This document shows positions 17,626 through 58,311 of a stretch of DNA of 64,000 nt, piece after piece. Source of the DNA: Cloeon dipterum (Eukaryota > Arthropoda > Insecta > Ephemeroptera > Baetidae). The notes under the pieces are model-generated. The model was given only the letters and a program-made list of their open reading frames with translations. It made no database searches and had not been told where the DNA came from. The DNA lies in assembly GCF_949628265.1 (NCBI RefSeq), contig NC_088789.1, forward strand, positions 23,615,883-23,679,882, written 5' to 3'. Within the stretch, counting starts at the first letter, position 1; each line of letters starts with the position of its first letter. A program made the translations under genes and the position numbers.

Positions 17626-20600
17626 ATGGCTCTCTCCAAGAAGTGCGTCGTGCGGGCCGCCCTGGCGTTTGCCCTCGTCAGCGTCGCCACTTGCAGCTCT
17701 GATACGGGTAATTTGATTGAATAATTCGTCAATTCGATATTTATTTTCCTCAGAATTTGGTTTTTATTCAATTTGGGTCAAACGAAGTCTACGACTTGTC
17801 AGGTATTTTACACCATGGACCAAAATCAAAGGATTAAAAAATTGTATTTATTTTTCTTTTTAAAATATTAAATTGCTGCAGTCCAAATTATTATTTTTTT
17901 TAATTAACTGTTCTCTTTTTTACCATAAATAGGTTATAAACTTCATGGAATCGTTTTTTTCTATGAGAGTAAAGAGTTTAATTTGCAAATCGGGAAGTTC
18001 TTACAGTTTGGAGCTACTAACAGATGGAGCTATTGTTAATTTACAATTTTTGTGGACTCCTTTTGCGATTTCAGATTAAATCCTGCTTCTCGTTTGTATT
18101 TTGGAGTAAAAATATCTCATTTGACGTGCTTAAAAGCAAAACCAGTTCTGCAAATTGCGATAGGAACGAAAGCAAAAATATTAAATTAAATTAAAAATTT
18201 GTTTCTGTTCGTTGAAATTTTGGTTTTGAGTAAGTTAAATAAAAAAATGTAAATGAACTGTTGTCCCAATAGAATTTCCCAGCAGTTGGCGAATTTCTGA
18301 GGAAACAATTCCATCATTTTATCCCATTTTTATTGGAATTGTTTTTCTCCTCCAGAAAGTTAGTTTACTTTTCTGTCAGCTCAAATCATGTTTTCCTAAC
18401 TCATAGTGTGTCTTCATTCAGTGTCTTTTTCAGAAAACAATAGAGGCTCGATAGACCAATCGTGTTGGGAGGCAGTCGGTATTGATTCTTGGCCCATCAA
18501 AGAAGAGGAGCAAGTTTGCGGAACAAACGGCGTTTTGTACCCCAGCCAAAATGCACTCAAGTGTATTTCCAAACAAGCAGGCAATCATTTTTCATTCTGA
18601 TTTATCTTGACACCTACTGTGCAGCCGACTGAAACGCCCGCGCGCTGCCCGCGAGTAAACGCATCTTTCGGCCGGGGCAGCGCTGATCCGGCAATTTCGC
18701 GCTTTCCAAATCGGCCACATCTTTATCTCGTTAGTGCTGACCATGAAAAATTTCTCCGGACTGACATAATAGTCTGATGAAGCAATATGCGATTTCTTGA
18801 AGGCTTTTTCCTCGTTTCTAAAGAGAAATGAATTAAAATAATTATCAAATGTAAAGTGCAGCTAGAGTTTCCTTGTCACCTGAAATGGATTAATTTTTTT
18901 TCTCAAAAGGAATTCATGGTTGGGACTACTGCACGTTCAATCAAATTAACGGAAAGTTTGATTCAAGATATTATTGAAACTTACTTAGCAGTCAAAATTT
19001 AGTAACTATTGGTTTTTTGCATAAATGAAACTATTTAAAAATATAATTTAAATTATCAGCTTTTAAGAATTTAAATATATTGTTATTTTAATATTAATTT
19101 TGTTATTTAATTTCTTACAAATTTAATAGTTTTATAATATTAGTGTTTTTTAAAATTTGTATTTAATTTTAATATTACATTTATTATACAATTTTTAACA
19201 TTAATTTCGATTATTTATTATTATTAATTCTTAAGGATATCTACATAATGTCAAACAATAACAATTTTAACACACAAATCTTATATAAACAGACGTACGC
19301 GCCCAAAGATATTAAATCGCTAAGACAACCGAACCAGCCCAAGGGAGGACGACGAAGACGTGGTTCCTGTAAGACGTAAGGTTGTGCCATCGCTTTCGTC
19401 CAGCAGCGATGGCGCAACTTTACGTCTTACAGAGGAATCTCGTCTTGGTTGTCCTCTCTCTGGGTTGGTCCGGCTGTCTTGGCGATAGGAAAAATTATCT
19501 CTCTTTGAATTTGGTCGCGTCCGTTCATACACATATATGCTCGTCAATCAATAATATAATGTAACTGTTGTATGATTTGCGTGTTGAAATTGTCATTGTT
19601 TGACGGTATGTAGATATCCCTACAAATTAAAGAGGAATGATACTCCAAAAGCCTGGAAAATGCTTGTTGCCAATGCATAAACTCGCCCCTTAGGATTCAG
19701 TTAAAGCCTAAATTTACCAAAGAAGCACTGTAATTTTTAGAGAAAATTGGCTGGAAAGTTACCGTGCTTTTCAAATGGTAATGGCTGTCTCCTTACTTGA
19801 AATCCGATTTAATTTCAAAACCAAGAGTTTCCCCAATAAGTGGTATACACCGTTGGACATATCTCGACGAGAGGAATCCAAATATGCCAAGAAAATATGT
19901 TCAAATACTGTAAATTTTGGAGAAAATTGGCAAAATTTGAATTTTTACTGTAGGAAGGTCCTTTTTTATTATTGCAAATTGTTGAACAAATTGTTTATCG
20001 GTTAATTGTATTTGGGCTCCAACAATTCAAATAATTTTCCATTGTTGCCCTGTTTCATTCCACTGAATTATAATTATAACCAAGAATATTTTATAAAAGC
20101 CATTCATTATTTATGAATTAACTTGAAATGAACTGACAATCATATATCTTGTCTTGTGGATGACATCCTTACAAACAGTATTATTTAGCACTTTATAAAA
20201 TTTTAATAAATATAAACCGTGCCAATAATATCCCCAGTTTCAACCGCCTTGTAACTTTTCCCTGAATCGCGAGCTGAGAAAATCCAGATGGAATCGATAA
20301 ATCAGCAGAATTGAGCACGACCCTAACAGAAACTGATAGTTTGTCGTGTTGAATTCCCTCAGGAGTTGAGCAACAGGAGCGAGAAAAGTGCAGCGGCGGC
20401 TCCGACGGCGGCGGCAAGTTCGATCCGTGCGTGGCGCTCGCCTACGTCGCCACGCGCCGAGTATGCGGCTCTGATAATGTGACGTACAACAACGTGTGGC
20501 ATATGGTGTGCACCTCCAACATGTACAGCGTGGGTAATGACAGCAAACTATCTCTGCTCCTCACACTGCATTATTAACGAAATTAATTATGTGACAGAGA

Positions 20601-22884
20601 TAAATGCCGAGCACGACGGCGAGTGTGCCATCGAGTGTCCTTACTCGCCCGTCTACAAACCTGTTTGCAGCACCACTGATTACACCTTTGCCAACGAGCA
20701 GGCTCTCAAGTGCAAGCAGATATTGCAGCCGTATATCAGTGAGCGAAATCTTATTATACAATTTTATCTAGATTTATCGTCCCGCGTCATACGTGAGCAG
20801 AGAGTTATACTTCTATGATGAACAGCAAACTGGAATGATTATTATATTCTGTAGGGTTGGGAATTCCAGACCATCAACTACTTTTAAAGAAAAATTTAGC
20901 AAATTTGTCACGAACCTTTCGTACTTTTGAGCCCCAGATAATATTTTGATGCCCTTAGCCGTTTAAAATCTTCAATCAGAGCAAGAAAAAACGCGGGGGA
21001 CGCGAGAAACTGTCTATGTTTTTTTTGCATTTAAGATATTTCTGCGAAAATTATAAAAAAAATCACATTATGAAACTTGTTGGTTCTAAAGAATTTTATG
21101 AAGTCAGTTGCTGACTAGTAAAGAGATTGGGAAAAGTTTTGGAACTTGGAAAATTCCTGATTATGATGAACTTTTGTCGGAAATAAAGAGAGTTCACCTT
21201 AAAAAAGCAGAGAAAAATTGGTATAATTCGTATAAACTGGTTCCAAAAAATAATTGTTAAAAAAAACATCTAAAATAATTTCCAACCCTCCGACCTACGC
21301 TCAAGGAATTTCAAAATTCAATCTATATGTAAATGACACTGGCGGCAGAAAACTTTGTATTTGTAAATTGCCTAAAAAAGTTTTGCATTCAAAACTTTTC
21401 TGGGTGTGTATTTGGCAGTTTTTTTTTATATTTTTCACATTTATTTTTTCGCAGAGAACGGTTTCCAGCACGAGGGTCAGTGTAAGAGGCAGCAGAGCAC
21501 CAACCCTTGCTACGAATCTAACACATTCACCCCAGTGTGCGCTTCAAACGGGCACACTTACACGAGTGCTCAGCACATTCGCTGCCTGAAGCAAGTCAAT
21601 AGCGATCTGCGGGCACTTCACGACGGTGCTTGCACTCCGGACGAGGTGAAAGAGATCATTGGGCTGGACGACGTGTGCAGGATGGCGAATCACAGGCAGG
21701 AGTGGAGTCCCATTTGCGGCAGCGACAACGTCACCTACCCCAACTCGTACCGGTATCTCTGCGCTAAGAAGGAGAAGGGCGAAGGTGCGAAACTTTGACT
21801 TTGGGTCAAGATTTTTTTTTAGAGAAAATCGTGAAAGGGATTCAAAGCACAAAAATTTTTAAAGGGATGCTGGAGATTTTGAAACCCCTGCACGATGTTT
21901 TAAGAGCCTCTTAAGGGAAAAGATTCTGACTTAACCTTTTCTCATTGTCAGATCTTCTCCATGAATGAGACTCAGCAATTTTAGAGAGATTAGGACATTT
22001 CTTTGGAAAAATAAACTGCTTCATTTGCACCGAGGAAGCTTCTTTTACATTTTAATTTAATTGTTAAATTGTATTACGCTCTTGAACATAAATTTATACA
22101 CTTAAAATCATAAATTTTCTAAACCTCTCGATTAAATTTTTGTCCTTTACAACCATGACCCAAATATTCGATAAAATGTTGACCATCTATTAGCCTAAAG
22201 CGAAATATAAAGAATTTAGCTTCCAATAAAATTAAATGAATTTAAAATTTCGGTGAAAACTCCCTTCCTGAAATAATTTCTGCTTTTGAAGCGTTTTTTT
22301 GTCCCGGGACTTTCATCTCTTCAACAAACTCGAATTACACATTTCTAATTTTTTGCTCCAACGAATACCACCAGATTTACAAGTGTCCTACATGGGCGAA
22401 TGCGGGTCTTTCGACTACTGCCGGCAGCCGGAACCAGATGCGAGCCCAGTTTGTGGCACGGACGGAGTGACATACCCACACGATAACGCCCTGTACTGCG
22501 CGCAGGCCAGCTCGCGATGTGAGTAAAAAGCAAAATAAAAACCGGATTCCTTTGCACGCTTCTTTATTCCCGGTCCTCGGGCGTGTGTGTGTATCGCATT
22601 TCTCACGCCGGCGACGCAATTTTTCAGACCTCGGCAAAAAGCACCAGGGCGCGTGCAACGGAACCGTTGACGACCCCTGTTTGCACAGAGGCTTTCCCTT
22701 TTTGGACGACAACGGCAGGCCCGTGTGCGCTTCCAACGCAGTCACTTACGTCTCGCCCGAAGCCCTGTGGTGCGCGGCCAAAAACGATTCCGGTAAGATT
22801 AAAAAGACCTGCCCCCAATTAGCGTTTGAAACCTTTGCTCTTTTTACAGGAATTAAATTTATTCATTCCGGAGAGTGCTTTTAG
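17626..22884 (+). CDS. Secreted protein with seven four-cysteine Kazal-like domains, eight exons, 404 residues
   Basis: Exons are 17626-17707, 18434-18580, 20363-20533, 20598-20738, 21455-21784, 22375-22518, 22628-22792 and 22850-22884. Every intron is in phase 1, the classic pattern for shuffled extracellular modules, and the chain closes at TAG. Exon 1 gives a signal peptide (VVRAALAFALVSVATCSS). Seven Kazal-like units follow, recognised by VCGTDGVTY-type cores (VCGSDNVTY, ICGSDNVTY, VCASNGHTY) and ends such as HDGEC, HEGQC and HSGEC. Introns cut each unit before its last cysteine, except in exon 5, which holds one whole unit plus most of the next. Standard Kazal domains have six cysteines, but every unit here has four: positions 2 and 4, which normally pair, are both missing. 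Canonical Kazal domains inhibit serine proteases; whether these do is open because cysteine 2 normally braces the reactive loop. Intron 2 appears to use a GC donor. Poly(A) signal at 23009. Confidence 0.88.
19235..19619. mobile_element. Foldback element with long inverted arms (385 bp)
   Basis: It begins ggatatctacataatgtcaa and ends with the near-complement ttgacggtatgtagatatcc. The centre is a strong hairpin, 19369-19430, where gtaagacgtaaggttgtgcc pairs with ggcgcaactttacgtcttac with few mismatches. The intermediate arms also pair imperfectly (gaccaacccagag region with the ccaagacgaga region). It encodes no protein and lies in intron 2 of the Kazal gene, 11 bp before a TTAA-family element. 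Confidence 0.7.
19631..20064 (+). mobile_element. Near-intact TTAA-family element (about 434 bp)
   Basis: Starts agaggaatgatactcc after TTAA (19627-19630) and ends tttcattccact. The right-hand TTAA has decayed to gaat. The body is close to identical with the copies at 1780 and 51759. It sits in intron 2 of the Kazal gene, directly next to the foldback element. Confidence 0.78.
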
Positions 22885-23949
22885 CCGACGTGTGCGAGGC
22901 TTACGACGACACCATACGCTCGAGGGGCTTATACCAGCGCCGCTCACGTAATACCCGCGTAATTTATTTGATGTGAGATTCTGCCTCATCTGCAAATATT
23001 TATTTTCAAATAAAACTGCTGCATATATAGGCCATGAAGTATTAAAACCGATACCCAATGTAAGAACTGCATCTCATTGAAATTCTGCATCCCACGATTC
23101 AATATGCAATAAGCGTTTCTTTACTGCCTTGGAGCTTCGGAGTTTTATATTGCGGTCTCGTATACCTCTCTCCCTTTCATTGACGTACGTGCTAACGAGG
23201 AATATTGCGCCCTGGTTTGATCCCTGCAGCGATGCGCAATTTAAACTAATTATTTCCGCTGCGAGCCCGGCTGCACACACTTTTGCACAGCAGCCGCGAG
23301 GAATTTAGACCTTTAAACACACACGGCACCGAGTATATAGTTTAATTTAGCTGCGAAAATACGCTGGATTGCTTTGCTCTACATGCAGTATCATCGCTCG
23401 GGCGCGTTCCATTCGAAATGTGGGTGCCGCATTTTAATGCGAAAGAGAAAATTGCTGCCATTAATGCGCGTCGGCTGGGCAACTCCTTCCCGGCCGGCAT
23501 GTGTACGCGCGCCCCCTGCGCGCGAGCGATGATATCGTAAAAAAGGGACAAAACTTTATTAATAAAAGGCAGCATACAACCGTCGCGTTACTAGCGGCTG
23601 TAAAATTGAGCTATGACAACGCTCCCCGACATAATTTTAGCAATTTAGGAACTCCAAGAAATTCACCTGACAAAATTTAATCAATTTTCGGATAGAAAAA
23701 CTTTCTTTTTTTAATTCAAAATGTTCATATTACTTGGGAAAGATAATTTATTAGAAATTCCCTGGAGGTATACTAAAAATAAAATGCTGTTGACATTAGC
23801 TGCATCAATTCAAACTAATGCATAGTTATTGATCAATCATTATTGCTTTATTGAATCAATAAAAATTCCATTCCTGCGTGACGACACCGTAATTAAATTC
23901 CTATGCTAACTAACTTTACATTGTGAGTACAAAATATTGCAATCCGGAT
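22885..23949. other. 3' flanks of two convergent genes
   Basis: Begins with the Kazal 3' UTR, with an AATAAA at 23009-23014. It ends with the 3' side of the minus-strand CxHAFHxFLC gene, where tttatt near 23845 reads AATAAA on that strand. The middle part (23100-23550) is GC-richer but gives no supported exon. Confidence 0.5.
23009..23014 (+). terminator. Poly(A) signal of the Kazal gene
   Basis: AATAAA 125 bp after the Kazal stop codon. Confidence 0.5.
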
Positions 23950-26010
23950 TCATTGCCTGCGGTTGCCTCTGGCGGTATTTCTGTTACACAGGAAACCGTG
24001 GAATGCGTGAGAGCACAGGTCTTGCGGTGGTGGCCGCGGCTGCACGAGAGCCACGCGTGCAGGGTCATCAATGGATGACGCAGAGATTTGATTTTGCTCA
24101 GGAGGTGCGGAAGTGGTGGTTGTTGTTGTTCGTCTCGTTGTTGGAGTTGTGACGATGATGCGTTTGGTTGTAGTTGTTGGTGTTGTGGTCCTAGAGACGG
24201 GCAGCAGTACTGAACTCTCGTCTATATTTGAGTTTGCAGCTATTTGATTCGTTCTCGCCCTTTTCGGCGCACTATTACAAAGGAATGCGTGGAAAGCGTG
24301 TTTGCACTTGTCGTCCTCTGGACGCAGTTTTTGCAGAGTTTGTTGCGCCGGGGCGGAAATTCTGTCTGGGACGTTGAAACTCGGGGCTGGCTCGATTGGT
24401 TTTGGGGTGGTGGTAGTTGTAGTGGTTGTCGTTGTAGTAGTGGTAGTGCTTGTGGTTCTGGGTTTGGGTTTGGGAGGAAGAGCAACAGGCAGCAAAACAC
24501 TCGACTCGGGAACTTCTACAGGCTTGGGTTTGCGATTTTTCACGCACAAAAAGCTATGGAAGGCGTGGGAACAAAGATCAACTGGTTTTTCAGGTGCTGG
24601 TTTCGGAACATTTTTAGGAACAAGGAATGTGGGGTTGTCGATCGAAGCTTCAGGAACAACAGGGGGTTGGGGTGCTTTTGTTGTAGTTGTAGGTTTGCGT
24701 GTAGTAGTGGTGGTTGTTGTAGTCGTGGTTGTCGACGTTGTCCTAGGCTTTGGGGGCAGGGCTACAGGCAGCAAAACGCTCGATTCGGGCACCTCCAAAG
24801 GTTTAGGTTTCCGATTTTTCACGCACAAAAAGCTGTGGAAGGCGTGGGAACAAAGATCAACAGGTTTCTCAGGTGGTGGCTTCGGAACATTTTTAGGAAC
24901 AAGGAATGTAGGGTTGTCGATTGAAGCCTCAGGAACTACAGGAGGTTGGGGAGGTTTGGTTGTAGTTGTGGGTTTACGTGTTGTAGTGGTAGTTGTAGTG
25001 GTCGTCGTTATCTTGGGCTTTGGTGGAAGAGCAACAGGCAACAAAACGCTCGATTCGGGCACCTCCAAAGGCTTAGGTTTACGATTTTTCACGCACAAAA
25101 AGCTATGGAATGCGTGAGAACAAAGATCGACAGGTTTCTCAGGTGGTGGCTTCGGAACATTTTTAGGGATGAGGAAAGTTGGATTATCAATTGACGCGTC
25201 AGGAACCACAGGGGGTTGGGGTGGCAATGTTGTAGTTGTAGGTTTGCGTGTTGTAGTGGTAGTTGTAGTTGTTGTGGTCGTTGTTATCTTGGGCTTCGGT
25301 GGTAGGGCAACCGGCAACAAAACGCTCGACTCAGGAATTTCCACGGGCTTCCTAATGGTGCTTTTTCTTTTGTTTCCAGTTTGGCAGAGGAAGCTGTGAA
25401 AGGCGTGGTCGCACAGGCTCTTAGGCAAGGTGACAGGGGCCACGTTCTGAGGGGCGGGCTGGGGGATCCTATTTACTTGAGCAAAACTCGGAGATTCAAA
25501 TGAGGCTTCAGGGACTTCTGGTTGAGGAGGAGGAGGAGGTGGAGGAGTCGTGGTGGTTGTGGTTGTGGTCACGCGTTTTACAGCCACAGGGGCAATGAAC
25601 GAATTTTCTGGGCGTATTGGGTTTGGTTTTGGTTTTTGACACAAAAAGCTGTGAAACGCGTGGCCGCAGAGATCTTGCTCTTTCGTTTTCCTGGCGTCAA
25701 CGTTTGCCGCAGGCGCTGCCAATAACTGGATATCATTTTTCGGCGGAGGCGGCGGTCGTCTCGAGAATGTAGGGTCTAGGAAAGAGTTGACGGCGGATGC
25801 AGCGGGCATCTCATCTTGCCTTTGAGGTGCGATGCGTCGCGGAGCTGCCACCGACGCCTGCGGCTGAATTGGTGCTCGGGCTTTATGATTTCTGTTGCAC
25901 AAAAAGCCGTGGAAGGCGTGTGTGCACAGGTCAGCCTCGGTTTTGTCCACCGGTATCCCATTCGACAGGGAAATTAATGCCAGAAGCAAGACCAGACGCC
26001 AGAGGTCAGT
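23950..26010 (-). CDS. Secreted repeat protein with eight CxHAFHxFLC motifs and Thr/Pro linkers
   Basis: One exon of 2061 bp reads from the acceptor at 26011-26012 to TGA at 23950-23952, giving 686 residues. It begins with a hydrophobic signal-type stretch (LWRLVLLLALISLSNG), so the protein is probably secreted. Eight copies of a ten-residue motif, C-x-HAFH-x-FLC (for example DLCSHAFHSFLC), are spaced along it and flanked by basic stretches such as NRKPKP. Between them are mucin-like runs of Thr (up to about 14), Pro-rich pieces, and recurring SSVLLPVALPPKP and ASIDNPTFLVPKN segments. The middle modules (24480-25370) are near-identical tandem units of about 270-280 bp. The ATG lies in an upstream exon; one candidate is an ATG at 27592-27594 followed by a good donor (gtacgt) in phase 0, but this is unproven. 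I recognise no family. The spaced Cys/His pairs could bind metal or form local disulfides (inference). Confidence 0.8.
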   Translation of the reverse strand, partial: TDLWRLVLLLALISLSNGIPVDKTEADLCTHAFHGFLCNRNHKARAPIQPQASVAAPRRIAPQRQDEMPAASAVNSFLDPTFSRRPPPPPKNDIQLLAAPAANVDARKTKEQDLCGHAFHSFLCQKPKPNPIRPENSFIAPVAVKRVTTTTTTTTPPPPPPPQPEVPEASFESPSFAQVNRIPQPAPQNVAPVTLPKSLCDHAFHSFLCQTGNKRKSTIRKPVEIPESSVLLPVALPPKPKITTTTTTTTTTTTRKPTTTTLPPQPPVVPDASIDNPTFLIPKNVPKPPPEKPVDLCSHAFHSFLCVKNRKPKPLEVPESSVLLPVALPPKPKITTTTTTTTTTRKPTTTTKPPQPPVVPEASIDNPTFLVPKNVPKPPPEKPVDLCSHAFHSFLCVKNRKPKPLEVPESSVLLPVALPPKPRTTSTTTTTTTTTTTRKPTTTTKAPQPPVVPEASIDNPTFLVPKNVPKPAPEKPVDLCSHAFHSFLCVKNRKPKPVEVPESSVLLPVALPPKPKPRTTSTTTTTTTTTTTTTTPKPIEPAPSFNVPDRISAPAQQTLQKLRPEDDKCKHAFHAFLCNSAPKRARTNQIAANSNIDESSVLLPVSRTTTPTTTTKRIIVTTPTTRRTTTTTTSAPPEQNQISASSIDDPARVALVQPRPPPQDLCSHAFHGFLCNRNTARGNRRQ
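24480..25370 (-). repeat. Tandem coding modules of about 270-280 bp
   Basis: On the plus strand the sequence cacgcacaaaaagct starts at 24541, 24820 and 25090, giving spacings of 279 and 270 bp. Each unit encodes one CxHAFHxFLC motif, an SSVLLPV segment, a Thr run and an NPTF segment. Differences are mostly in the length of the Thr-codon run, as expected for recent unequal exchange or slippage. Confidence 0.8.
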
Positions 26011-29000
26011 CTGAAACAATAAAGAAGACCCAACAGGCTATGAAGTATTAAAATAGATAAAATATTGCCAATCAAAACAACTCTCCGCATTTATAGACAA
26101 GTGAAAACACAAATGTGAAATTTATGCTCGACGACAAAGCAAACATATAACGACCCATCAGCCTCCGTGCACCAGGTGCGTCAGGAGAGAGACATAACGT
26201 CTTTTTTGTTGGTGATTAATTTGTATTTTTATTACTCGATAGATAAATATCAACTCGGCTCGTGCAATCTCTCCGAACGGCGTTGCGTAAGGCAATGGAA
26301 TGTTTTGCAACGAAATTGGGCTAAATAGGCTATAAGTCTTCCAAGGCTGTGTCACCCGCTGGTCGCCCAAACACTCGACAAAAGGCGTGAAAATTAACAT
26401 CGCACGAAGAGTGATTAATGCTGGCTTAAGTGCCTGTATCTGAACTTTGACTCCTCCTTCATGTGGCACCCACCTAAAGTACGCACATACATTTCTCCTG
26501 GATGACACTGCAAGAGGATAAATTCCACTGGAATCTTATCTCGTAAAAACATCTTAATTGTCGTCGCAGGTGATTAAGCTGCCTTTAAAACCTAACTTGA
26601 AAAGTGTATGCCGACGGATTCACTTTTAAATATTGAGTGGAAATCTCTTTAAGCTCTGAAAGCTCTTAGCTATAGCTTGCTTTCGCCGAGCAAATAAAGT
26701 TTTTGAAGCACCGGCTTAACGCATTAACACGTTGCTGGCTGGAAATATTATTAAATATTCAAACAGAATTTAACATTATAACAAGCAACATGCTTGCGAT
26801 CTATTTGAAATTGCCCTGCTACTTGTACATCATCCAACTTTGAAAGGGAGTTGCAACTCATTTACTCTACGCAAACAAAACTCAAAGGAGTAATACGTGC
26901 TCTACTTCATTTCATACCAGAGCCTGTAGCAAAAACGGAAAATGCAAATGTATTTTATATTCATTTTATTTCATTCGTGTCGGGGAATTTTCGGGGTGTG
27001 AGTATGGAACCAATTTATTTTAAACAGATGCTAAGAACCATGACCTGTCTCTTTTATTTTTCAAGGAAAGGGAAAATTTGCAAGAACGACGGTGCGAATA
27101 ATTATTTTGAAGCTCTCATTTAGCATTGAGCTTGCCAAGAAGGAAAGAAGTAAGAAAAATAATTAAATCGACATTAATTATTCTTCTGTTCTATGCAAAT
27201 GAAGGAGCAAGAGCCACGAGGGGTTCAGGCTAGTTTCTCATGCAAATTATTCACTAGGAAACTTCCTCCTGCTATTTTCGGTGCTAAAGGCTACAGAAAT
27301 TCTTTTCACGCTGTCGAGGTGTCTATATGACGCAAGGCTGCACAAAAATCTGGAGCAATATATATTAATGAACCAACCCTCGACAAATATTGACGAAAAG
27401 TTGCTGGCTCTCCCTCGCAATTTATAATTTCGCCCACCCTCGATTAGACACAACATGCAATCCTTTGATCAAAGTATGAGGTACACCAAAGCAACTTGAT
27501 CCAATTAAAACTTTTCGATGCAAAGTATGGGAGAATTTTTGAGAACATGGGGTCGCTAGCCGGCCTGGGACAAAATAAACAAACGACGTACCATCTTTCA
27601 GCGTTCTTCCTTCCTCCGCAGACTTTCTATATTGGACCTGGATTGTGCGTGATCTTTCTCTGGATGCTGCAACTTTTTGAATGTACCGAACCCGAGCCTC
27701 GCGCATCTCAGCCCATCTTCTTTTTGCAAGTTGGAAGCTGCAGAAGGGGGGAGATTTTTCTTTCTGCCGCAATAAACTTTTCTTCCCGACCTCCCACTTA
27801 TTATATAATGCTGAAAAATAACACCCAGGTATAAATGATTGAGATGATACTTTCACGTTGAATTTGGCGACACGATCGTCTTGACCTCCGACCGCCCATT
27901 GCATTTATCTCTCGACGTGCGCCGCTCGGCTCCTGTTACGAAAAGTTCACTTTCTTTCCCTCTGCGCTTTCGCAATCGGCCCGTTTCCTTTGAAAAATGC
28001 GCTGTAAAAATAAATATACGCACTTTGTTGCAAATAATGATGAGTAGGCATCCTATGTGGCTTGCTATAAAACTTTTATTTATCGTGCAGTGTCTACCTT
28101 AATTGAATATTTTATTGCGCCAAGGGTCGCGACATAGTGCACCGCGCTAAGTTGTTGATTTATAAGAGAGCGCTCTCACTGGTTGGATAATAGCGGTGTA
28201 ATGGTTGCAGTTGCTGCATTACTTATATTACAACATTAAAGCCGGCCGCGCGTATATTATATGTGAGAGTGCGTCCCGGTCCCGCTGGGAAGTTATCACA
28301 CACAAGGGGAGCATAAATATTTGCTCGTCCGGCTCGATGGACCGAAAATAATCCAACTGGACGCAAACACTGCGGTTGTTGTGAGTTGAAAAACTGGTGC
28401 TGCAATTAATTTCACGCGGGTTCCATTTTAATTTACTAGGTTATATTTTTTCTAGTGTCTGATCAGAAAACTGACGCGTTGAACTCATGATTCATGAATT
28501 TAAAATGAGAGAATTGTCAATATTATCCGACTTGCATCGATTATTTTGAGTAAACAATTTGGTTTGATTAATAATTTGTGACCTAGAAACGACCAAATCG
28601 AAAAAATGAAAGACACACAGAAATTTTACGAGATCGTAAATTATTGTCACTCACTTCTCTTTTCGTTTTGTGTGTAAGATCAGTATAGATGTTCTCAACG
28701 AAACAAAACTTTCCTGAAGCTAATTATAAATTTTGTTTTTAATGAATAAAAGAGTGCATAACAAAAAACGTGACAATTACAACTTCTCCTAATAGCATAT
28801 TATTACTTATTTTGTTTAGATTTTAAATTAATAAACTATTACAGTTTAAAATTTATTAAAATAAAAATAATTTCTTTTACCTTATTTATAACACTAATTA
28901 TTTCATCTTATAAACGTTAAAAACTGTATATTTTTTGTTTTAAAAAAGTAAAATGTCAAATTAAATCAATACTGGCTCGTTCCTCTTGTCCAAGCTGGGA

Positions 29001-30428: not shown

Positions 30429-33400
30429 TTAGAATTGAGGCGCCCTGATCGGTTTTTTGCCGCCCTTGACGCCGTAGACAGGTCTTCTCGCGGTGAGTGT
30501 GTGAGTGCGTGCTGGGCCGCCGCGAGCCTGAAGATTCCCTTGCGCACCTTGGCCGAGAGCTCCGGACACGCTGCCGTACGGAATGCCGCCTGAAAAGTTA
30601 AAATATAGCCCAACATTAGCGAGTTACGCGACAGTCGGCCTTCTTGAGCGCTGATTTGCACCACACTATTTTCTCAGTTTCCGCGTAATCCTGCGTTTGT
30701 GCACAGTAAATCAGCAAGTTGAAGAGGAGTTTAAATTCCACATATTATTTTTTTGTGCTCGGCTAAAGTAGTTCCGGATCTGCAGATTATTTTGCGCGAT
30801 TTTTAAATGGGAACATAATATGCCAAAATTGCCTTGCAACTGATTGTGAGCGTTATTTGTGAATTATGCTTGACGTAGAAAACTTCTCATTTTTATTGAT
30901 TACCTGCTAGGCTGCTAATAAGAATATTATTGACACCATATTTTAATGGTTTATCTTAATACTAATAACTGTTCTTATGGACACATTTATATTTACCAAG
31001 CAAATTCCTGTATTTAATTTTTAAATATTCAATTATTGCTCGTAACTCACATAATATATAAAATTATTTTCAGTTACATAAACTATGAGTTAAGAAAATT
31101 GTATACGGCCATATGCTAAAATAAATGATTTTTAATGCTATTATATATATTTAATATAAAATAAATTAAACTTATGTTTATTTTATTACTTATAAAATAA
31201 AATTAATTGCTTATTAAACACTTAATTGAGTAAAAATAAAATAAATGTGTTTAATTAGTATATAGCAATTTATAAATATAAAATTAACAGTTTGTATGAA
31301 ATTATTTAAAATATATTGCAAATATTGTGTTTGGTTAAACATTTATGATCGTTATCATGCTGAAAATCTCCGAGGGGCGTAATGTTGCTAATGCAAAAAA
31401 TAAACTATTAAGAATGAGTTAAATCCAAAATCATCCTGACTACCACTTTACATAATATAAGACAATTTTTTTATTATTTTAGAGTCTCACTTATCAGAAA
31501 TCTTATTTTATATCTAAAAAAATAGTTTTTACAAAAAGTTACACTCACCATTCGGTAGATCTCAACGACAGGAATTGAAATCAGGCTTTAAAATATGTTT
31601 AAATTTTTGCAGGAAATATATAAAGGCAAAGTTTGAGCTTGAACTGTAGCAATGTCCATTGTTAAGTTACAAGTGGATCTTTTCATAATTTCCATAATTG
31701 CTTAAAGATATTTCTTAAAATTGATAACAGAGTTTAAATTTAATTTCTGAGGAAATCGGCATCAAAGTGTGAATGCTAATTAAGCGGCGAGCACTGTTTC
31801 CGATTCAAGAATCAAGATTTATTTCATCAGGAAAAAAATGTACCGCCATAAATCACACACTGTTGGATAGATCGCGTCGAGAGGAATCGAAATCAAGCGA
31901 AAAATCCCTGACAAACCGTTAGATGTTTTGGACAAATTAGGCAAAATCTGAAATATAACTGTTACTATGTATAAGTCTTGATTTGACTAATTGCATTTTG
32001 TAGAGGATTAATAGCAACTAGAGGTCTCAGCCGGCTGCGCTACGCCGTGCCAGCAGGCAAATTTTGGGCCGCGCCGGTCACCGTTCAAAAAGGGTCACAA
32101 AGGAGAAAAAATGTATTCCGTCTTCCGGCGCTTCGGATCGTTATGCACTATCAAACTTCACGTTTAAAATATTGTCAGCCGCTGGTGAAAATGGCCAGTT
32201 GCCGCCTCCGGGTAAACGCTAGGCCGGCCCCACCAGCCGCCGCCCTAAGACCTCTAATGGCAACACATAAAAAATTCAACAGACCACTTTGCCAACTAAA
32301 TAAAGCAATGTAAACTGTTCATTGTTAGCTTTTTCAAATACATAAAGTCTTGGAATATAGTTAATTGTTGGAAGCAAATCTGACTACCATTCGCGAATTC
32401 GATCTGTTATTTGAATTTCAAAAAATGGAAGGTTTGAAGGAGGCAAGCTGGCGGCTGGCGATGTCCGTGAGCGTGATGGCGGTATTTGCGATTCTCGCGG
32501 CGGTCTACTCGAAAAATTGGTGCGACGCGTTCGCCATGCCTGCCACGATCGAATGGGACCTGCCCGGCATCAAGGAGCAAATGGAGGAAAAAGTGCACGG
32601 CCAGCGGAGCACCACCACGCAACTAATCAACTCGCTGCAGTGGACCTTGAAGGATGGCGCCAGCTCTAATCAGGAAGACACACCCCAGCTCAAGGCCATC
32701 TTCCTGCTCGGGGGACCAGGCGTCGGAAAAACAAAGGTGCCACTTACATAAATTTACACCTCGTTGAGTTGAATGTGGAATATGAGCGGTTTGTTATAAA
32801 GTGGATTGATACAGCTTGATTAAAGAAAATTCCTTTTAAATTAATGTTGATTACTTTCTGAGTGGTTTGGGTCAAAGCCAAAATTTGCGCAGGTTAATCT
32901 GGGCTGGAAATCGGGATTTATTTCTCTAAAAGCTTTAAAAGGAGAATTTCCAGCACACACTTGTAAAGATACCAACGTGAATCAACTACAAAAACATCAA
33001 AATTTAGGAAATTTGCTCAAATCGTATTTATCATCGATGTTATATTGTTTCTTTCCACAAGGTTTTATAAAATTTTGACTGGTTCAGTGATAAGAATTTG
33101 AATTTTAGAGTGTAGTTATTTTTCTTGATCGCGGAATTATCAAATAGGCATACGGATGATGCTGCTTTAATTTAATTTAAGTTCAATGAACTTTCAACTA
33201 TCTAAATCCGCGTTTAAAACTGCCAAAACCATTTAAAAGCGTCTAAATTGTATCAAAACCAACAGTGCCTGGCTTGTATAATATTTTCCGTGGAAATTAA
33301 TAGTCTAAAAATATATGACATTTAAAATAGCTTTCGTCTATTTTATAATCTAGAAATTTTTATTTTTGTTCAAAACTTAGGCATCCATGCAAGATAGTCT

Positions 33401-36400
33401 CAATTTTGAACCAATTTAGAAGTTTTTCAGGTATTTGACTACCTTTAAATCCCCACATTTCTAAATGACTGATTTCACTAACAAGGAAAACCCCCTCATG
33501 CAATGATACAGATCGTGAATCGTGACAGGAAGAATTAAATCAGCAACATCTGCATTTCTTTGGGGAAATCGCCAAAATCTAAATTTTAAATGGTTTTATT
33601 TCTCTCCTTGAACATTTTAGAGATAAAAAAACTGCAAGAGATCGCACAAAAGATAATTAACAGATGCCCTGTTGTATCAATCCTCTTTAATTAAAAACGG
33701 GTCTGTATACACGTACACTCGCAACTCGTAAATCTCGACGCATAATTTTACGCGTAGAAACCTTGAACACGACAGTTTACATTAGCAATAAAAATATTCC
33801 CAGAAGGTGAATACGCGGCAGTAGAGAGAAAAATGACGCCAACTTTCACCATTGCATCTCATCTTTTTTTAGTGCAATGAGCTGCTCACGCATAATGTGC
33901 AATTTTTCAGACAATGAAAATCGTGAGCAGCCACGTGCAGTGCCGCTACAAAGGGCTCTTCAGCATTCTGCCGTGCAACGTGCACAAGAAGACGATCGCC
34001 CCCATCGACGGCCACTCGCACCAGGTCTTCTCTGACAACAGCAAGACCACCAGGTACACCGGCGTCCACTTCAACGCCATCGAGGTCGACCTCACGGACT
34101 TCAACAGCAGTCACGCGCAAGGATTCGCCAGTCTTGAGCACGAGATCTCTAAAAAGGGGAGGAACAGGAGAATAGTCCTGGTCACGGGCAAGATCATGAG
34201 CCTGGAGCAGCTCGAGAGGCTCAGGACTGCAAGGGAATATGATAATTTCGTCGGAGAGAAGGCAAAGGAAATTGGACTGTTGATGAAGGAATATGCACCT
34301 AGGTAAGAATTTTCGGTAGTAAAATATTAGATACTTTAATTTAAAATATTTTTACATGTTTTATACTTTTATTATAATAAAAACTAATTGTTATTTATTT
34401 TCAAAATTTAAGTTCCAGTTTAAAAATATTTTGAATATAATAATTTTACTTTCAATAATTTAGATTTGTCATGTAATTAGTAAATAAATAATTTACCCTA
34501 TTCATTGGTGGAATTGATAAATCCATCTTTCTCATATCGAATTGTCCAGATTATTAAATAATAGAGCGTGTTTTCTCAATTACATCTAATGCATAATTTC
34601 TTTTGGATTTTTGTGTTCTAGTATTGCATTCACTTTTGCTCACCGTAATACTTCTTGATCCTGATAGAGCCAAAAATTAAAAATTATTTTTATGCCTTTT
34701 TGCGTTGCGGGTGGCAAACAAAATAATTACAGATCCACCTCAAAGTCCAGTTTGATTTAGTTAGAATCCGTTACAGATTAGTTTATTCACCTGGAAACTT
34801 AGATTTATCGGAGATACGCAGTGTCAATACTTTTTAAATTGAAAGGAAAAGTCAAGCAAAAATATTAATGCAATTTTTCAATTCAATATCATTAGCTATT
34901 TAATTCCTCTTTCCAAGATCAATTATTGAACGGTGGTAAACCTTACTTAGAGGGACTTTTTTTCTTTATGAAAAATAAGCAAGCAGTGTTTATTTACCAT
35001 CTGAAAATATAAACTTTTGAATTTGATTTTCTACGAAAATCGTAAAAATTTTGGCATTGGTTTAATATTAAGAGAATTTATTTAAATTTAGAAAGGCTAT
35101 TAATTGGATTTTTCTGAAAATTTGCAATGAAAATAACTTTTGTATTAAAATTTAGGACTAGAAACGGACCAATATATATTTTTGAGATGAAAAATTCAAC
35201 CAGAAAACTTGAAAAAAAGCTCAATCCCAACCCCCAAAAAAACTCTGCTCTACATTTTTGTCAAATATATAGGTATTTTAATGTGCGGTACGAATTGCTT
35301 AAAATTGCAAGATTCGCTTCAGGGTTCTGTGACGATTGTAGACAAATATTCTAAATTAAATAATTAAAATGAAAATGCATTTTCAGAGTCGATATGGAAA
35401 TTGTCAAATTCAAGTCACTGAGGCCAAGCCACGCTTTCCTGTGTCTCATGAGGGAAAAGGGAGTGGAGTACGCGTTCAACGCCACGCGCAACGACTTGCC
35501 GAAAGATGATTACTACCCCAAGGGCTGCTACGTAGGCTAGGCACCCTGGAGACCTAGCCCTCGACATTTTTGTACATATACAGCATCATTTAACATAATC
35601 TTTATCGCCACGTGTTTCTTATACAAATAATAAAAGTCTGTTTTTACCATAAGCGAGTCCATTTACTCTCTCGACGATTCCCGCGCTGTCCGGCGAAGGG
35701 AATGCGGAAATAAGGCACGCGCCGAGTGCCAGCAGCAGAAGAGCCTGTGGATCGATAACAGATTTAGAGCACACATCTCTTTATATGCGAATAAAAGGAA
35801 AGGCCGGGCAAAGATTTCAAGCGCCTTTAATCCAAGCAAAGAGGATTTGAACGTTAAAAGTAAACCGAGACACTTTCACCGCCCGGTTTGTCAGCAGCGC
35901 GATTGTTTTGAGTGAGTTGGGGCAGGAGCACTAAACTCGCGTGTTTATATATACACAGTAAATGGAACCATGTCGGCGCGGCTCGTGTCAACGCCTGCGG
36001 GCCTTATCCAACTTGAACTTGGCCGTCTGCGTCTAGTCAACCCAGCGCTTCCAACAAGTGAGAGTTGCTGAATCTGCTTTGCTAAATAAACCCACTATAA
36101 TTTACACTAGTTTCCTCTATCGAGTAACCCAAAAGATTTACTATAGTAATCTAATTTATATTTTTAGCTTGCTTTTTCACTGTATTTTAAGTCTCTCAAC
36201 ATGAGGTAGCTCAAACAAAATATTTATTTAGATATTTTGGATTCAATTACAGGATTTAGATCAATCTACTTAATACCACATCGCTGAGGCTGCGGATCTG
36301 GCCAGCAAAGGGTTCAATTTTAATTTTTGAGCGATTTTTGCGACACTGAAATCTTTGTTTCTTAGTGAGAAGTTACTGGATATTGCCGCAATGCCACCAA

Positions 36401-46455: not shown

Positions 46456-49400
46456 CTAGCGCCAGTGGCCGCCGTAATGACCCTTGCCGTGGTACCAGCC
46501 GTGATGACCGTAGCCGTAATAATAAGGGTAATGGTAGTGATGCGGATAGTGGTAGTAGTGCGAGTGGTGATGCAACCCGCCAAGCAGTCCCAGCAGACCT
46601 GCAATGAGAACCAGTTTCAGAATTGGATTAGATTGATTTTGCAAAAAAAAAAATAGAGTGGCTTGCTTTCTTAGCAAGCAAGCAAGCGAGCGCGCTAGAT
46701 TTATTGCCGTCTTTTTCCTCGGGCCATTACTACGCGCGTCGTTGAGATTCTGCGGACCGGATTTACTACCCCGGAAAGACTTGCGGCGGGTGAAGTAACT
46801 CTCGTGAGAAGATTATTTGGGGTGCGGAGGCGGAGGAAGAAAAACTTTGAAATGTAACAAGTGTGCTAATGCTACTTTAATCGATCGGCCTATGCGAGAC
46901 TGACGAAAGAGTGGACGCTAGATTATCTCAACAAGTGGGCCCAGCAGTAGAATAAATTCAAAATATTAGGATAGGAAATATGTTTTACTACATAAAGAAT
47001 TAATCTGGCCAGTGCCGTTGCCATTCACAATTCTCAATCACCTAGAAAATAAATGTATTTGGATTAATGAAAAACTTTCTGTCCATTAATTTATATTGAA
47101 TTAAAAGTGTTTAAATTTTTTTTATTTAAATCTCAAATCTATATAAAAATTGTTATTGCCTTTAAAATTAAATGATTTTTAAATTATTAAAAAAATAATA
47201 ATAATTTGTAGACTGCTTAATTGAGTCAAATTCTGTGAGACTGAAACGATGATTAATGAGAACTGGCGTGGTCCAGATTTTCCCGACACACATATTTTTA
47301 CTAGATTTGCTTGTCATGGCTATCACTTTGTTTCCTCTAATGATAATGCAACTTTCCATTATGAACCTAATATTGACTGAAGATGTAATTTCTGTGGCGA
47401 GACGTGAAAAATATCATATTCAATCGTGTACGGCAAGAAAATTAACTCCTATAGAATAATAAAAAATTTGTTAAAATTGATAAATTGAGTATATTTCATA
47501 TTCAAGTACGCATGTGCCTTTAATAAAAACATTAATTAATTAAAAAATTTGTAAGTTTTATATAATAAAAAATTCTTTTGTTAGCACGAAAAACACGTTT
47601 TAAAATTGTCTTAAAAATAATTATTAAAAGTTTTAATTTATAATCTAGCAAAAATTTTGAAGTAAAACATTATGAAATGAATAATATTTTAATAATGAGT
47701 TTAACAATTTTTGCAATACGCAAAAATGCTTGCTATTTTTTGCGCCTCAAACGTAATTTTAAAATACCACACAACAATAATCCCGGCATGATTACCTTAC
47801 AAGCTTTAAAAATCTCAGAAATTTAAACTATATGATCAAATCAAATTCTAGCTCTTTCCCAACTTTTAGAGAGCATTTGAGGTACAGGTCAAAATGATTT
47901 TTCATGAATTTGATAAAAATAATATCCACTTTAAAGCTGGTAAGATGAGGATATTTAATAATGTAGTGCCTGCTAATAGGTGGCACTCTCCTCCCCCTTT
48001 TAACCATAGAATAATTAAGCAGTCAAAAAATCACTGCTTATCTAACACACTTTTGATCTTGAGAAATTTACCTATTTTTGGTGTCACTGCCCTTTTAAAT
48101 CTTTCAATTATATTCAGAAAGTTTATAGCTTCAAAACTCGATTTAAAATGCTAATTGCTATGTACAGACATGAGTTTATTTTGAATAAATTTAAATAGCT
48201 AATAAATGATATACATAAAATTCCCCCTTTAATTCAGCACTCCCAGTGTAATTTCTGATTTAATTAAAGTCCAAATCCAGTCTCTCCCAAATATTATTTT
48301 TGCATTGAGGGAGTTGAATTGCCATGGAAATTCCCATCGCTACATTGCAAAATCTCATTCGCTCTGCCAAAGTGGGAATTCAAACAGGCTCTGAGTGAGT
48401 TTGATTGATGAAATACAGCACTCGACAGGCTAAACAACTCCACCGAGCGAAATCATATTTATGAAAGGCAGAGTATTTTTTAGGGGTTTTTTCCACGTCG
48501 CGTGCTTTGAGAACAAAAACAATTATAAACACAGCTGGAACAAAATGAGTTTGCTGTGTTAGTAATGATCATTTCAGCAACTCCTTGAAAAAGTTTATCC
48601 TTGTGCCGCAATAAAAAGCTGATTTGGTTAAGCGCGAGAAAATCGATCCACTCCTGCGGTTGACGCACAGCAGGGGCGGAAAAATATCGCTCTCGCGCGT
48701 CAAGTGCATTTCATCAGATGCAAATTCGATTATAAGCCGGCACACACGCGCGCAACCGTCTTCACAAAAGGGCGAAAGTTGAGCTTAATTGTAATTATCG
48801 CCACCCCCGCAACGCTCGAGAGTGACAGCAGACAGTCCCCACCCCCTACTTTGCAGCTCCTCTGTCAGCGAAATTCACGCGCTTTCCTCCGAACTCACCG
48901 GGCGCATAATTGTTTTCCGGTGGTGGCTGTCACCGAAATCTAGCTCTCGGGCAAACACCGTGCTGAGTGCGCAAGTATGCGGTCTTATCTACTCACTCTA
49001 CACACAATTCATGTTGCATAATTCAATTATTCGTTATGCAAACGAGAGATACACACTAACACACACTCACCGAATGTTGGTTGCGGCGACGGCATCGCAC
49101 AGATTAGCGCAAACACTGTCATCAGGATTGCCACTTGCAGCTGAAATTAATTTAATCGCATTAGCACCGTGATGATTGCCTTGAATAATTCACCCCCCTG
49201 CCTCCACCACCCCCGGACTGAAATTCCCGGCGTGCATTTTAACTGGCACTCAGTCCGAGTGCCGGAAATTAGCCGCATGTGAAGTGCGCTCCTGTGTTTA
49301 ACGACCCCCTTAACATGCTCGTTTTAATTTTCGTGTTTACTCTGGCAAATTGGAAAAAGTGCGACACTGCTCATTTCCGCCGAAAAGGCCACGCTAATTA

Positions 49401-54872: not shown

Positions 54873-57800
54873 TCACGTCTGCTCGTCGAGATGGGCAGGC
54901 GGATTAAATCTCTTCCTCCCCCTGGAAACATAAAGAAGGCCGTCGAGAATTTATTGAACTGTGAGCTAAAGCGCCGCAGCTGTGCGCGAATGAAGCGTGC
55001 CCGATAAGACAATGGACGCAGAGTTATTTCCCTTCGAATAATTTTCACTTCCGATTACACCTTAAAACGACGAAAAACTTAATCGGCAGTGCGACTTTTT
55101 AGTGCGCCACTAATTGCATACTCGTGCTCGTGTAGCGCTAAATGCTTCGAGTTGGCGGGGCGTGAAATCGTTTCGTCGTCCGAATTGGAGAGCGATATAA
55201 TTTGGAACTAAGGGTTATATTAAAAATATTTATATTTCTGTTTTTCACCTGTAAAAAATGTAGCAGTCAATTCATAAATTTCTGTGCCTTAGAGTTAGTT
55301 TTATATCAAAGAGTAAGTCGAGGAATTAAGTTATTTAAAATTAACCACTTAATTTAGAATAAAAACGTTATTAAATTCAGGCGGATAAATTTTTGCATCT
55401 TAGACGCTTTTGGAAATTTGTCGTAATTTGGGCGAATTTATCAACTTTTTAGATAAATTTGATTATTGATGAGAGGTGACTGCTTTTAAAATCGAATTTT
55501 TCTGTTATTATATCGTCTATCCAAAGCTAAGAATACGTTTTGGTTAAATAAATATCTCACCCAATCCCTTTTTTAATATTAAAAATCTTATCTTGAGAGC
55601 ATTGGTTTAAATCTCATATTTGATTTTATCAATAAAGAAAGAATTTGAAACTTATAACTTTTAAAAACATTGACCAATCGTGTCTAAGAATTATTAATAA
55701 TTTTATATAAAAAATTAAATGATTTCTCGTGTTGATGTTTCATTCTGCGATCTTTTTGCCATTGTTCATGTAACTTGCAATTTAATCTGACCTAATTAAT
55801 GTACATAAATAATAATCAAATATGTCTAAATATTGTTCCTAATTATGCTAAGTTAGCAGCTTATACAACCCTTCTAGATTTATAAATAAGATGGAAAGTA
55901 ATTTAAAATTTTGATTGTAAATTATGGCTGCAGTGCAAGAATGAATATTAAAATGTCTTAAAAACAATGTACAAAATGTTTGACCACTTAAAAATACAAT
56001 TTTATGTAAATATAATTAAACTAAATTTAAAGACTTAAGCTAGAAATAATTAAATATGTAAAATTACCGTATTATGAAATATACACTTGTTAAAATTTTT
56101 AAAAGACATAATTTAAAAGTAAAAACAGTACCTGGCACGTGAAAATTCTTGATTCCTGTGTTCAGAAGAGACGGGGACCTCGGGAGATGTCGGTCTCGCT
56201 CTTTGATTTGTCGCTGCTCCAACAGATTCGGTGGCCTCTGGAGCGTTGCGGAGCGGCTTTTCGGCTTCGTCTGGCTTGGTCCTCTGCCTGCCTCGTCGCA
56301 CGGTGCGACGGGTCGTGGCGACGACTTTTTCATCGTCAGCTTCCGCGACAGCTTCAGTTTGTCTCCCTCTGGCCCGCTGGGGCTTGGTGGCCGGTTCCGG
56401 GCTGCGGTCTCTCGACCTGCTGCTCGACGACCGCTGTCTTCCGCGAGTCGATGCCACCGTCGTCGCAGCAGGGGTGGTTGTTGTCGTGGTCGTCGTCGTG
56501 GTGGTCGCCGCCTCGAGCTCGATAGGGGCTGCTGCGACGGAATTCGTCGTCGTCTCGGGCACCGCGGGAATTGGATCGGCAGATAATATATTGGAGATGT
56601 CGAGATTTTCCTTATCAGGAGCGATAAATTCTGTGGTTTTCTCTTCTGGGGGAGGAATTGGCCGATTTAAGGGCGATTCAAAGACCGGAAGAGGAGCCTC
56701 CGTGGCCGGCTCGGCGTATTTTGTGACGGTGGTGACCTCCGAGTCGACCGCCGTCGTCTGCACGCGTTTCGGCGCACGGATTCGCTGCCTGCTGCGCTGC
56801 ACCTCGGTCTGGGCCGCCGGGGGCCGGATGCGGCGTTCGCCACGACCGTCAAAAATGTCCTCCGGAATGGCCGCGTGCACCCTGGCGCGGCCTCTGGATT
56901 GCGCCTTCTGGGGTCTCGGGGGAGGTTCTGGGGTCTCGGCGGCGAGAATCACGTTCTCCGGCTGGCGGGGGGCGGGGGCGGCATTCCACTTGGTCGTGAT
57001 GGCCTCCTCGGCGGGGGCGGCGGCAGCTTCAGGCACGTACGTGGAGCTGTACAGGGCAGGCTCTTCCTGGTTCAGTCTGTGCCGCTCGATCTTGGTCGTG
57101 CGGACCGGAAACGCCCTCAGGGGCTGCTCCTCAGGCTCCTCGGTCACCTCGTAGGATCTGGCACCGAATTTTCCCGAGAGACGGCGGCTGGGGTGTGGGG
57201 CGTCGGCCGCTTTGCTCTCGGCCAGGAACTTGACACCACCCTGCCTGGTCGAGTAAATGACAGGAGCGCCGATGTCTCGCGCTTTCCTCAGTCTGATCGG
57301 CAGGGGCGGCGGCATCAGGCCTTTTATCTCCTCCGTGGCAGCACTTGCCATGATCAGATTCTGCTTATTTTTCTTCGCCTGTTTGGCCTGTCGCATCTTC
57401 TTGGTGCGCGCCTCCTTCTCGGCCTGCTCCTTTTTCGACGCGTTAGTAATGAACAAGACAGGCCCAGTGTTAGTTTCGGATGGGAGTAGGGTTTGGGGGT
57501 TAATACTGCCAGCATGCACCTTTTCCTCTTTGAATAGGGGGTTGTCGAACGGATCCGCGCCAAAGTACTTGGAGACCAGGCAGTCAATCTTGTCTCCCAG
57601 CCCACGCAAGCGGGGCTCGCCCTTGGGACCTTTATCGTCCGGCCCGACGCTTAGAACCGGGGCAATGTCAGGGCATTCCTTGTAATTAGTGCTCTCGTAA
57701 AACGGCAAATCAGGGTTATTCTTTTTGTCAGGCAGGAGTTTAGGGTTGGTAGCGTACCTTTTGGCCGAGTTTTCTGGGGCACTCAGATAGAACGGGTACT

Positions 57801-58311
57801 TTACGACATCCACTGCCGCCTTGGTTGCGGGAACGTCCACCGTGGCGTGCGTAGCCTGATCTCCGGAGGAGTCGGCGTGCTCGGATTTGTGCTCCTTAAT
57901 GTCGTGGTTCTGGAACTGCTCCTTGAAGTCGCCCTGCTTCTCGAAGTGGCCGTGGTCGTATTTCTGGTCCTCGTAGCCCTGCTCGGTGTACACCTCGCCC
58001 AATTTCTTGGTGGTGATCGCCTCCTTCAGCCTCTTGGCCAGCACGATTTCCTCCGGCGTGGTGGCGTCGGACAGCGCCTCCCGCCGCGGCACGAACTTCG
58101 TACTCTTCTCGTGACGCACGCTGGCCAGCACTTTGATGGGCACGAAGCCGAGCTTAACGCGGTGGCCCGGCGGCGGTGTTCCCCAGTGGAACGGCTGTTG
58201 CTTCTGAATGCGTGGGTCCTCGGCCGCAGGGTTTTTCAGCGAGTAATCCGCCCCTCGGGCACTGGCGAGCAGGACAAACAAAGCCGCAGAACAGAGGTAG
58301 AGCGACTGCAT
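54873..58311 (-). CDS. Large secreted Arg/Thr/Pro-rich protein, two exons, 742 residues
   Basis: Exon 58311-56132 (726 codons plus 2 bases) joins exon 54921-54873 in phase 2 through a donor caggtactg and an excellent acceptor (tttatgtttccag), ending in TGA. The start MQSLYLCSAALFVLLASARG is a clear signal peptide; upstream in-frame codons are probably UTR. The N-terminal half is charged, with His/Asp/Glu-rich repeats (YDHGHFEKQGDFKEQF). It also has a conserved-looking block with two of the few cysteines (YKECPDIAPVL and LGDKIDCLVSKYFGADPF). The C-terminal half is disordered, with a Thr run and repeated Arg-Gly-Arg units (SRGRARVH, TRGRQRSS, RRGRQRTKP, ARGRKRFN). The Arg-Gly-Arg theme continues across the splice junction, which supports the exon pair. 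Probably an extracellular-matrix or cuticle-type protein (inference); family unknown. Confidence 0.75.

Follow-up and report, generated by a model that had tools for sequence, protein, structure and literature searches.

Skin mucins of frogs, FIM-A.1 and FIM-C.1, are built of trefoil modules alternating with Thr-rich spacers. Binding of O-glycosylated mucin has been proposed for the trefoil modules (PMC7177656). Among insects, Drosophila mucins have been defined by a Ser+Thr content of more than 25% (Syed et al. 2008; PMC2515642, in excerpt); the same excerpt quotes PTS thresholds of 20% Ser+Thr and 5% Pro from Lang et al., and reports that three Drosophila mucins have Cys inside their PTS repeats, a role in organising interactions between chains having been suggested for such Cys in Xenopus. 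The atypical Drosophila mucins Sgf1 and Sgf2, which are PTS-rich as well, tested as not glycosylated, and their clotting activity depends on Cys, being strongly lowered by reducing agents; their Cys are all C-terminal, and no repeated box is described for them in the excerpted text (PMC13373891). The protein analysed here (boxed protein), encoded in a 64-kb window (the whole stretch of DNA that was analysed) of the mayfly Cloeon dipterum, resembles the Cys-bearing Drosophila mucins in having Thr/Ser/Pro repeats with recurring internal Cys, and the frog mucins in having one or more small Cys modules as possible contact points (PMC2515642 and PMC7177656, both in excerpt). In contrast to the former, its Ser+Thr content lies below 25%, which counts against the mucin reading, and it has a fixed ten-residue Cys-His box at regular spacing, a feature not described for Drosophila mucins in the available text of PMC2515642; in contrast to the trefoil domains of the latter, its modules consist of ten residues with two Cys. 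The kind of protein (mucin-like) is already known, and the box is apparently new.

The minus-strand frame at window positions 23950-26037 is open from stop to stop over 695 aa, and the other five frames of the same stretch contain 10 to 39 stops each. Since a pyrimidine-rich tract ending in a CAG acceptor directly precedes position 26010, the protein part was taken as the 686 residues of the main coding exon (Table 1). The product of this exon (exon 2) begins with TDLWRLVLLLALISLSNG-IPVDK..., and the mean hydropathy of RLVLLLALISLS at its N-terminus is 2.27. No Met is found in frame ahead of the hydrophobic segment, and exon 1 with the start codon is therefore assumed to lie upstream. In a scan of 25 kb, 15 candidates of an ATG plus a donor were listed, among which the weak one given in Table 1, located 5.5 kb upstream, has the top donor score and is second in the combined ranking. 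The 64-kb window contains no tRNA and no Rfam match at the gathering score.

Table 1. Features of the boxed gene, in window positions
Feature	Position	Strand	Remarks
Weak start-codon candidate	31549..31551	minus	ATG, then GT donor; end of exon 1
Likely splice acceptor	26011..26027	minus	pyrimidine-rich tract to CAG, phase 0; read from the sequence
Main coding exon	23950..26010	minus	686 residues and stop codon (23950-23952)
Hydrophobic signal-type segment	25957..26010	minus	TDLWRLVLLLALISLSNG; directly after the splice acceptor; by hydropathy
Box 1	25897..25926	minus	CTHAFHGFLC
Box 2	25639..25668	minus	CGHAFHSFLC
Box 3	25384..25413	minus	CDHAFHSFLC
Box 4	25093..25122	minus	CSHAFHSFLC
Box 5	24823..24852	minus	CSHAFHSFLC
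Box 6	24544..24573	minus	CSHAFHSFLC
Box 7	24277..24306	minus	CKHAFHAFLC
Box 8	23986..24015	minus	CSHAFHGFLC
Linker motif	24904..24933	minus	PEASIDNPTF; ahead of box 5
Linker motif	24745..24789	minus	PESSVLLPVALPPKP; unit 5, found too in units 3, 4, and 6
Tandem array	24464..25329	minus	most alike units; period 270 bases, 3.2 copies, 85% matches
Polyadenylation-type signal	23847..23852	minus	AATAAA; 97 bases past the stop

The initial annotation had described eight copies of CxHAFHxFLC, invariant at HAFH and FLC, on a Thr/Pro scaffold behind a signal-type N-terminus, and each of these points was reproduced. All eight boxes are present in the minus-strand frame, with box residues 1, 3, 4, 5, 6, 8, 9, and 10 fixed throughout, and they contain all 16 Cys (two per box) and 16 of the 17 His of the whole frame, neighbouring boxes being separated by Cys-free stretches of 75 or more residues. 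The mature part consists of 21.6% Ser+Thr and 17.4% Pro, and the N-terminal RLVLLLALISLS is hydrophobic as judged by hydropathy. Two regularities had gone unmentioned: the boxes are near-regularly spaced, with box-to-box distances of 86, 85, 97, 90, 93, 89, and 97 aa, and the ten residues following each box carry a net charge of +3 (seven boxes) or +4 (one box), whereas only 3.7% of background 10-mers (n = 435) reach +3 or more. Across all six frames of the window, the pattern C.H..H...C was counted eight times, always in the boxed frame; when the residues of the mature part were shuffled 20,000 times, two of the shuffled sequences contained it, neither more than once.

With respect to composition, the limits of 25% Ser+Thr and 5% Pro are reached by 249 of the 569 segments of 100 aa, which together cover 527 of 668 residues. 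The mature part as a whole exceeds the PTS threshold (Ser+Thr at least 20%, Pro at least 5%), whereas the exon-2 product, with 21.4% Ser+Thr, stays below the stricter limit of more than 25% of the whole protein, and we therefore regard the boxed protein as mucin-like but not as a strict member of the mucins. From this composition and the hydrophobic N-terminus, the protein looks secreted. The spacers are probably O-glycosylated, as presumed from their sequence; the boxed protein contains no N-glycosylation sequon.

Comparison of the box codons over the 28 box pairs gave a pS of 0.918 and a pN of 0.108. The codons of seven of the eight fixed residues vary, that of the first His alone being always CAC. 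At the eight fixed codons, 10 'nonsynonymous' steps were counted over the 28 pairs without any residue difference, because paths between Leu codons are averaged. Recent copying or gene conversion would have reduced synonymous differences too, so that the pattern is read as purifying selection, which in this within-gene comparison acts strongly on the boxes. The linkers, too, contain two conserved motifs (Table 1), which had likewise gone unmentioned. Unit 7 carries a shorter linker version, DESSVLLPVS; PDASIDNPTF or PEASIDNPTF stands ahead of boxes 4 and 6, and PEASFESPSF ahead of box 3; and with looser versions of the two linker motifs in other units there are 11 matches to one shared pattern. 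For PESSVLLPVALPPKP, compared in units 3-6 (four of the eight units), pS was 0.582 and pN 0.019, and for PEASIDNPTF, compared in three of four loosely matched copies, the values were 0.524 and 0.028; the remaining linker copies were left out because they are too divergent for codon-by-codon comparison. The low pN relative to pS in both boxes and linker motifs indicates that both are selected; the box alone is retained in every one of the eight units. Thus, the earlier view that the box is selected holds, but its companion, that the box alone is selected while linkers merely vary, finds no support in that form.

The boxed gene is apparently a single-gene case, selected and mucin-like. In the 190-Mb genome, exact DNA matches to HAFHxFLC numbered 10, eight of them in the boxed gene (the reversed pattern gave one). 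Of the other two, both set aside as apparent chance, the one at C3:22005808 lies in a frame riddled with stops and the one at C4:26800702 in a frame of 30 aa that lacks the first Cys. The protein searches of the genome work exon by exon, and their match counts are lower bounds. All seven matches of the unit 2 query, all three of the linker query, and eight of the 10 of the unit 5 query fell in the boxed ORF; the two remaining unit 5 matches (E 0.905 and 1.07), whose surrounding frames have no box, were rejected, CNFIFYSFLC in one of them being taken as chance. By the pattern and these exon-by-exon queries, the 190-Mb genome yielded no further gene with boxes. As expected for an insect gene, none of 40 pattern matches in prokaryote genomes and none of 31 in viral contigs was confirmed as a relative. 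Sequence searches of solved structures (PDB) revealed no convincing relative of the boxed protein: one gave two weak matches, to a designed protein (E 0.017, mostly via linker residues) and to a Cascade subunit (E 0.82), and a second returned none. In literature text, HAFHSFLC, its close variants, and spellings of the signature were not found, further strings gave one unrelated match, and nothing was found that joins mayflies with secreted, threonine-rich cuticle mucins. The box thus has no name in the Pfam, PDB, and literature searched and appears new.

The families Chitin_bind_4, CBM_14, JHBP, and 7tm_6 (odorant receptor) mark insects, and the genome has 94, 125, 44, and 5 matches to them, respectively, in agreement with the initial annotation's suggestion of an insect protein. 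The listed matches all fall on five of 10 contigs. Within the boxed protein, neither Chitin_bind_4 nor CBM_14 matched at E up to 1. The idea of a cuticle cluster was dropped, since the nearest listed Chitin_bind_4 match is about 0.6 Mb away and the position of the gene gives it no support. Pfam Mucin (PF01456) scored 12.6 bits against a cut-off of 34.7, and none of the weak fragment matches (Mucin, New_glue, SSP160, MGC-24, and others) reached its cut-off.

The only Pfam match over its cut-off (23 bits) was DAG_kinase_N (PF14513), with 34.5 bits for 689 aa of the frame and 36.4 bits for the exon-2 product. In the whole protein no stretch passed E 1 alone, the best one spanning profile positions 62-96 (35 of 151). 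The score was 24.3 bits for a three-unit fragment, in which two stretches passed a lax E of 10 (the best spanning positions 64-126, 63 of 151), and 17.5 bits for a fragment with boxes 1-3; none was listed for the C-terminal fragment, and at E up to 10 neither of two single 90-aa units and none of four short pieces matched. The boxed protein gave no kinase match. With the reversed protein sequence the DAG_kinase_N match disappeared; the score is therefore not due to composition alone, and this control argues against dismissing it. Because the signal fades as the repeats decrease, however, membership of the DAG kinase family was rejected, and the score looks like a short resemblance of the box region summed over copies rather than homology. 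The claim that the protein belongs to no known family accordingly stands for single repeats, for which no Pfam family passed its cut-off, but formally not for the whole protein. Structure prediction by AlphaFold gave no confident fold or metal site, either for a 61-aa unit (eight rows; pLDDT 69.5, pTM 0.19; no four-residue helix and no three-residue strand) or for the box plus tail (pLDDT 69.8, pTM 0.19; one four-residue helix over SFLC). At this low confidence, the models are neutral with respect to a loop or a metal site.

We favor a mucin-like protein, secreted as a structural or mucus component and made of Cys-His nodes on Thr/Pro spacers, a reading to which we give about an even chance. 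By analogy with the systems described above, the boxes would be nodes and the Thr/Pro stretches spacers. The spacers would keep the chain extended, with the boxes, about 90 residues apart, as its contact points, and each node would comprise a Cys-His box and its basic tail. Since each box has two Cys and there are none elsewhere, local C-x8-C or box-to-box bonds are favored: the two Cys of a box might close a C-x8-C disulfide loop displaying HAFHxFL or, alternatively, pair with boxes of neighbouring chains. One of these, a disulfide loop or interchain pairing, is most likely the chemistry of the box. Many weak nodes could then connect the chains to form a gel or matrix, or could bind a partner; we infer both this network function and the tissue in which it would operate. 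If the boxes do link chains, the protein would have a compact, near-regular sticker-and-spacer design with stickers of ten residues, and could serve as a simple model of the setting of mucus, glue, or matrix in insects; as a short peptide, the box lends itself to testing. Should orthologs prove widespread, the gene would define an unnamed repeat family; if not, it would be a lineage-restricted mucin.

A plain disulfide leaves both invariant His unexplained, which keeps metal and ligand readings in play. Each box (C-x-H-x2-H-x3-C) could be a minimal zinc or copper site, either within the box or as half-sites, C-x-H and H-x3-C of different boxes sharing metal ions and thereby linking chains; the two versions taken together appear rather unlikely. 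The two Cys and two His, invariant in all eight boxes, are nearly the sole Cys and His of the frame. RING-H2 fingers have the arrangement C-x-H-x2-H-x2-C, and the box shares the C-x-H-x2-H core followed by a Cys, a likeness weakly detected by Pfam (zf-rbx1, 18.3 and 18.6 bits against a cut-off of 31; zf-RING_2, 16 against 27.3 in the three-unit fragment). However, three residues rather than two separate the last His from the last Cys, none of the other RING ligands is present, so that the eight ligands of a RING-H2 finger are not found, and all these scores are below cut-off. In addition, Cys of secreted proteins are usually oxidized, neither search of solved structures gave anything convincing, and the AlphaFold models contain no confident site. 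The more specific proposal of a new minimal metal-binding repeat, in which zinc- or copper-linked Cys2His2 boxes on glycosylated spacers would form a metal-set mucin or adhesive, is improbable; a bound metal would make the box a new minimal extracellular metal site.

It is likewise improbable that the boxes, as nodes on a mucin spacer, are lectin-like or bind a partner, contacting a sugar or a protein instead of one another. Their invariant aromatic and His residues and the basic tail would suit a binding face, and the outline recalls the frog mucins with small Cys modules (PMC7177656, in excerpt), but a trefoil module is much larger than the box, for which no fold was predicted with confidence. 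A multi-copy precursor cut into eight hormone- or defence-like cyclic peptides (C-x8-C) is very unlikely. In multi-copy neuropeptide precursors, dibasic cleavage sites flank each copy. In the boxed protein a signal-type segment is indeed followed by copies of a short motif bounded by Cys, each with a basic stretch behind it, but dibasic sites do not flank each box: a dibasic site lies within eight residues before only one of the eight boxes, Pro follows eight of the 17 listed dibasic pairs, and the single R-x-x-R site is at the C-terminus. The conserved linker motifs of close units and the near-regular spacing also speak against a precursor. Thr/Pro tracts expand easily, but a non-functional frame maintained by repeat expansion is most improbable given the near-saturated synonymous change with residues fixed, the likely splice acceptor and AATAAA in place, and one open frame of 686 codons.

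Several other features of the window were observed. Adjoining the boxed gene, a run of exons on the plus strand (18400-22884) has matches to Kazal-type serine protease inhibitors, three of its five frames being over the Pfam cut-off, and is probably one multi-domain gene. At the end of a minus-strand frame (46456-46812), a hydrophobic segment precedes a short tail rich in His, Tyr, and Gly, LHHHSHYYHYPHHYHYPYYYGYGHHGWYHGKGHYGGHWR, and the product may resemble small secreted peptides of the cuticular or metal-binding type. Another minus-strand frame (56113-58434), open over 773 aa, has MQSLYLCSAALFVLLASARGA as its signal-type start and contains an Arg-rich part as well as a Thr tract; Pfam gave nothing for it at E up to 0.01. 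On the plus strand, exons of a nucleotide-binding enzyme (32365-34306; FLLGGPGVGKTK) are adenylate-kinase-like by eye; their second frame (33896-34306), the only frame scanned, had no Pfam match. Two closely similar plus-strand open frames, NWLESYRAFQMVMAVSLLE..., about 18 kb apart (1893-2165 and 19712-20005), apparently belong to an unnamed interspersed repeat. Outside the window, PBP_GOBP (odorant-binding protein, OBP) gave only one weak match genome-wide, alongside the matches to odorant receptors, the OBPs being either missed by the exon-by-exon search or scarce; in one published comparison, Cloeon dipterum has 167 OBP genes (PMC7250882, in excerpt).
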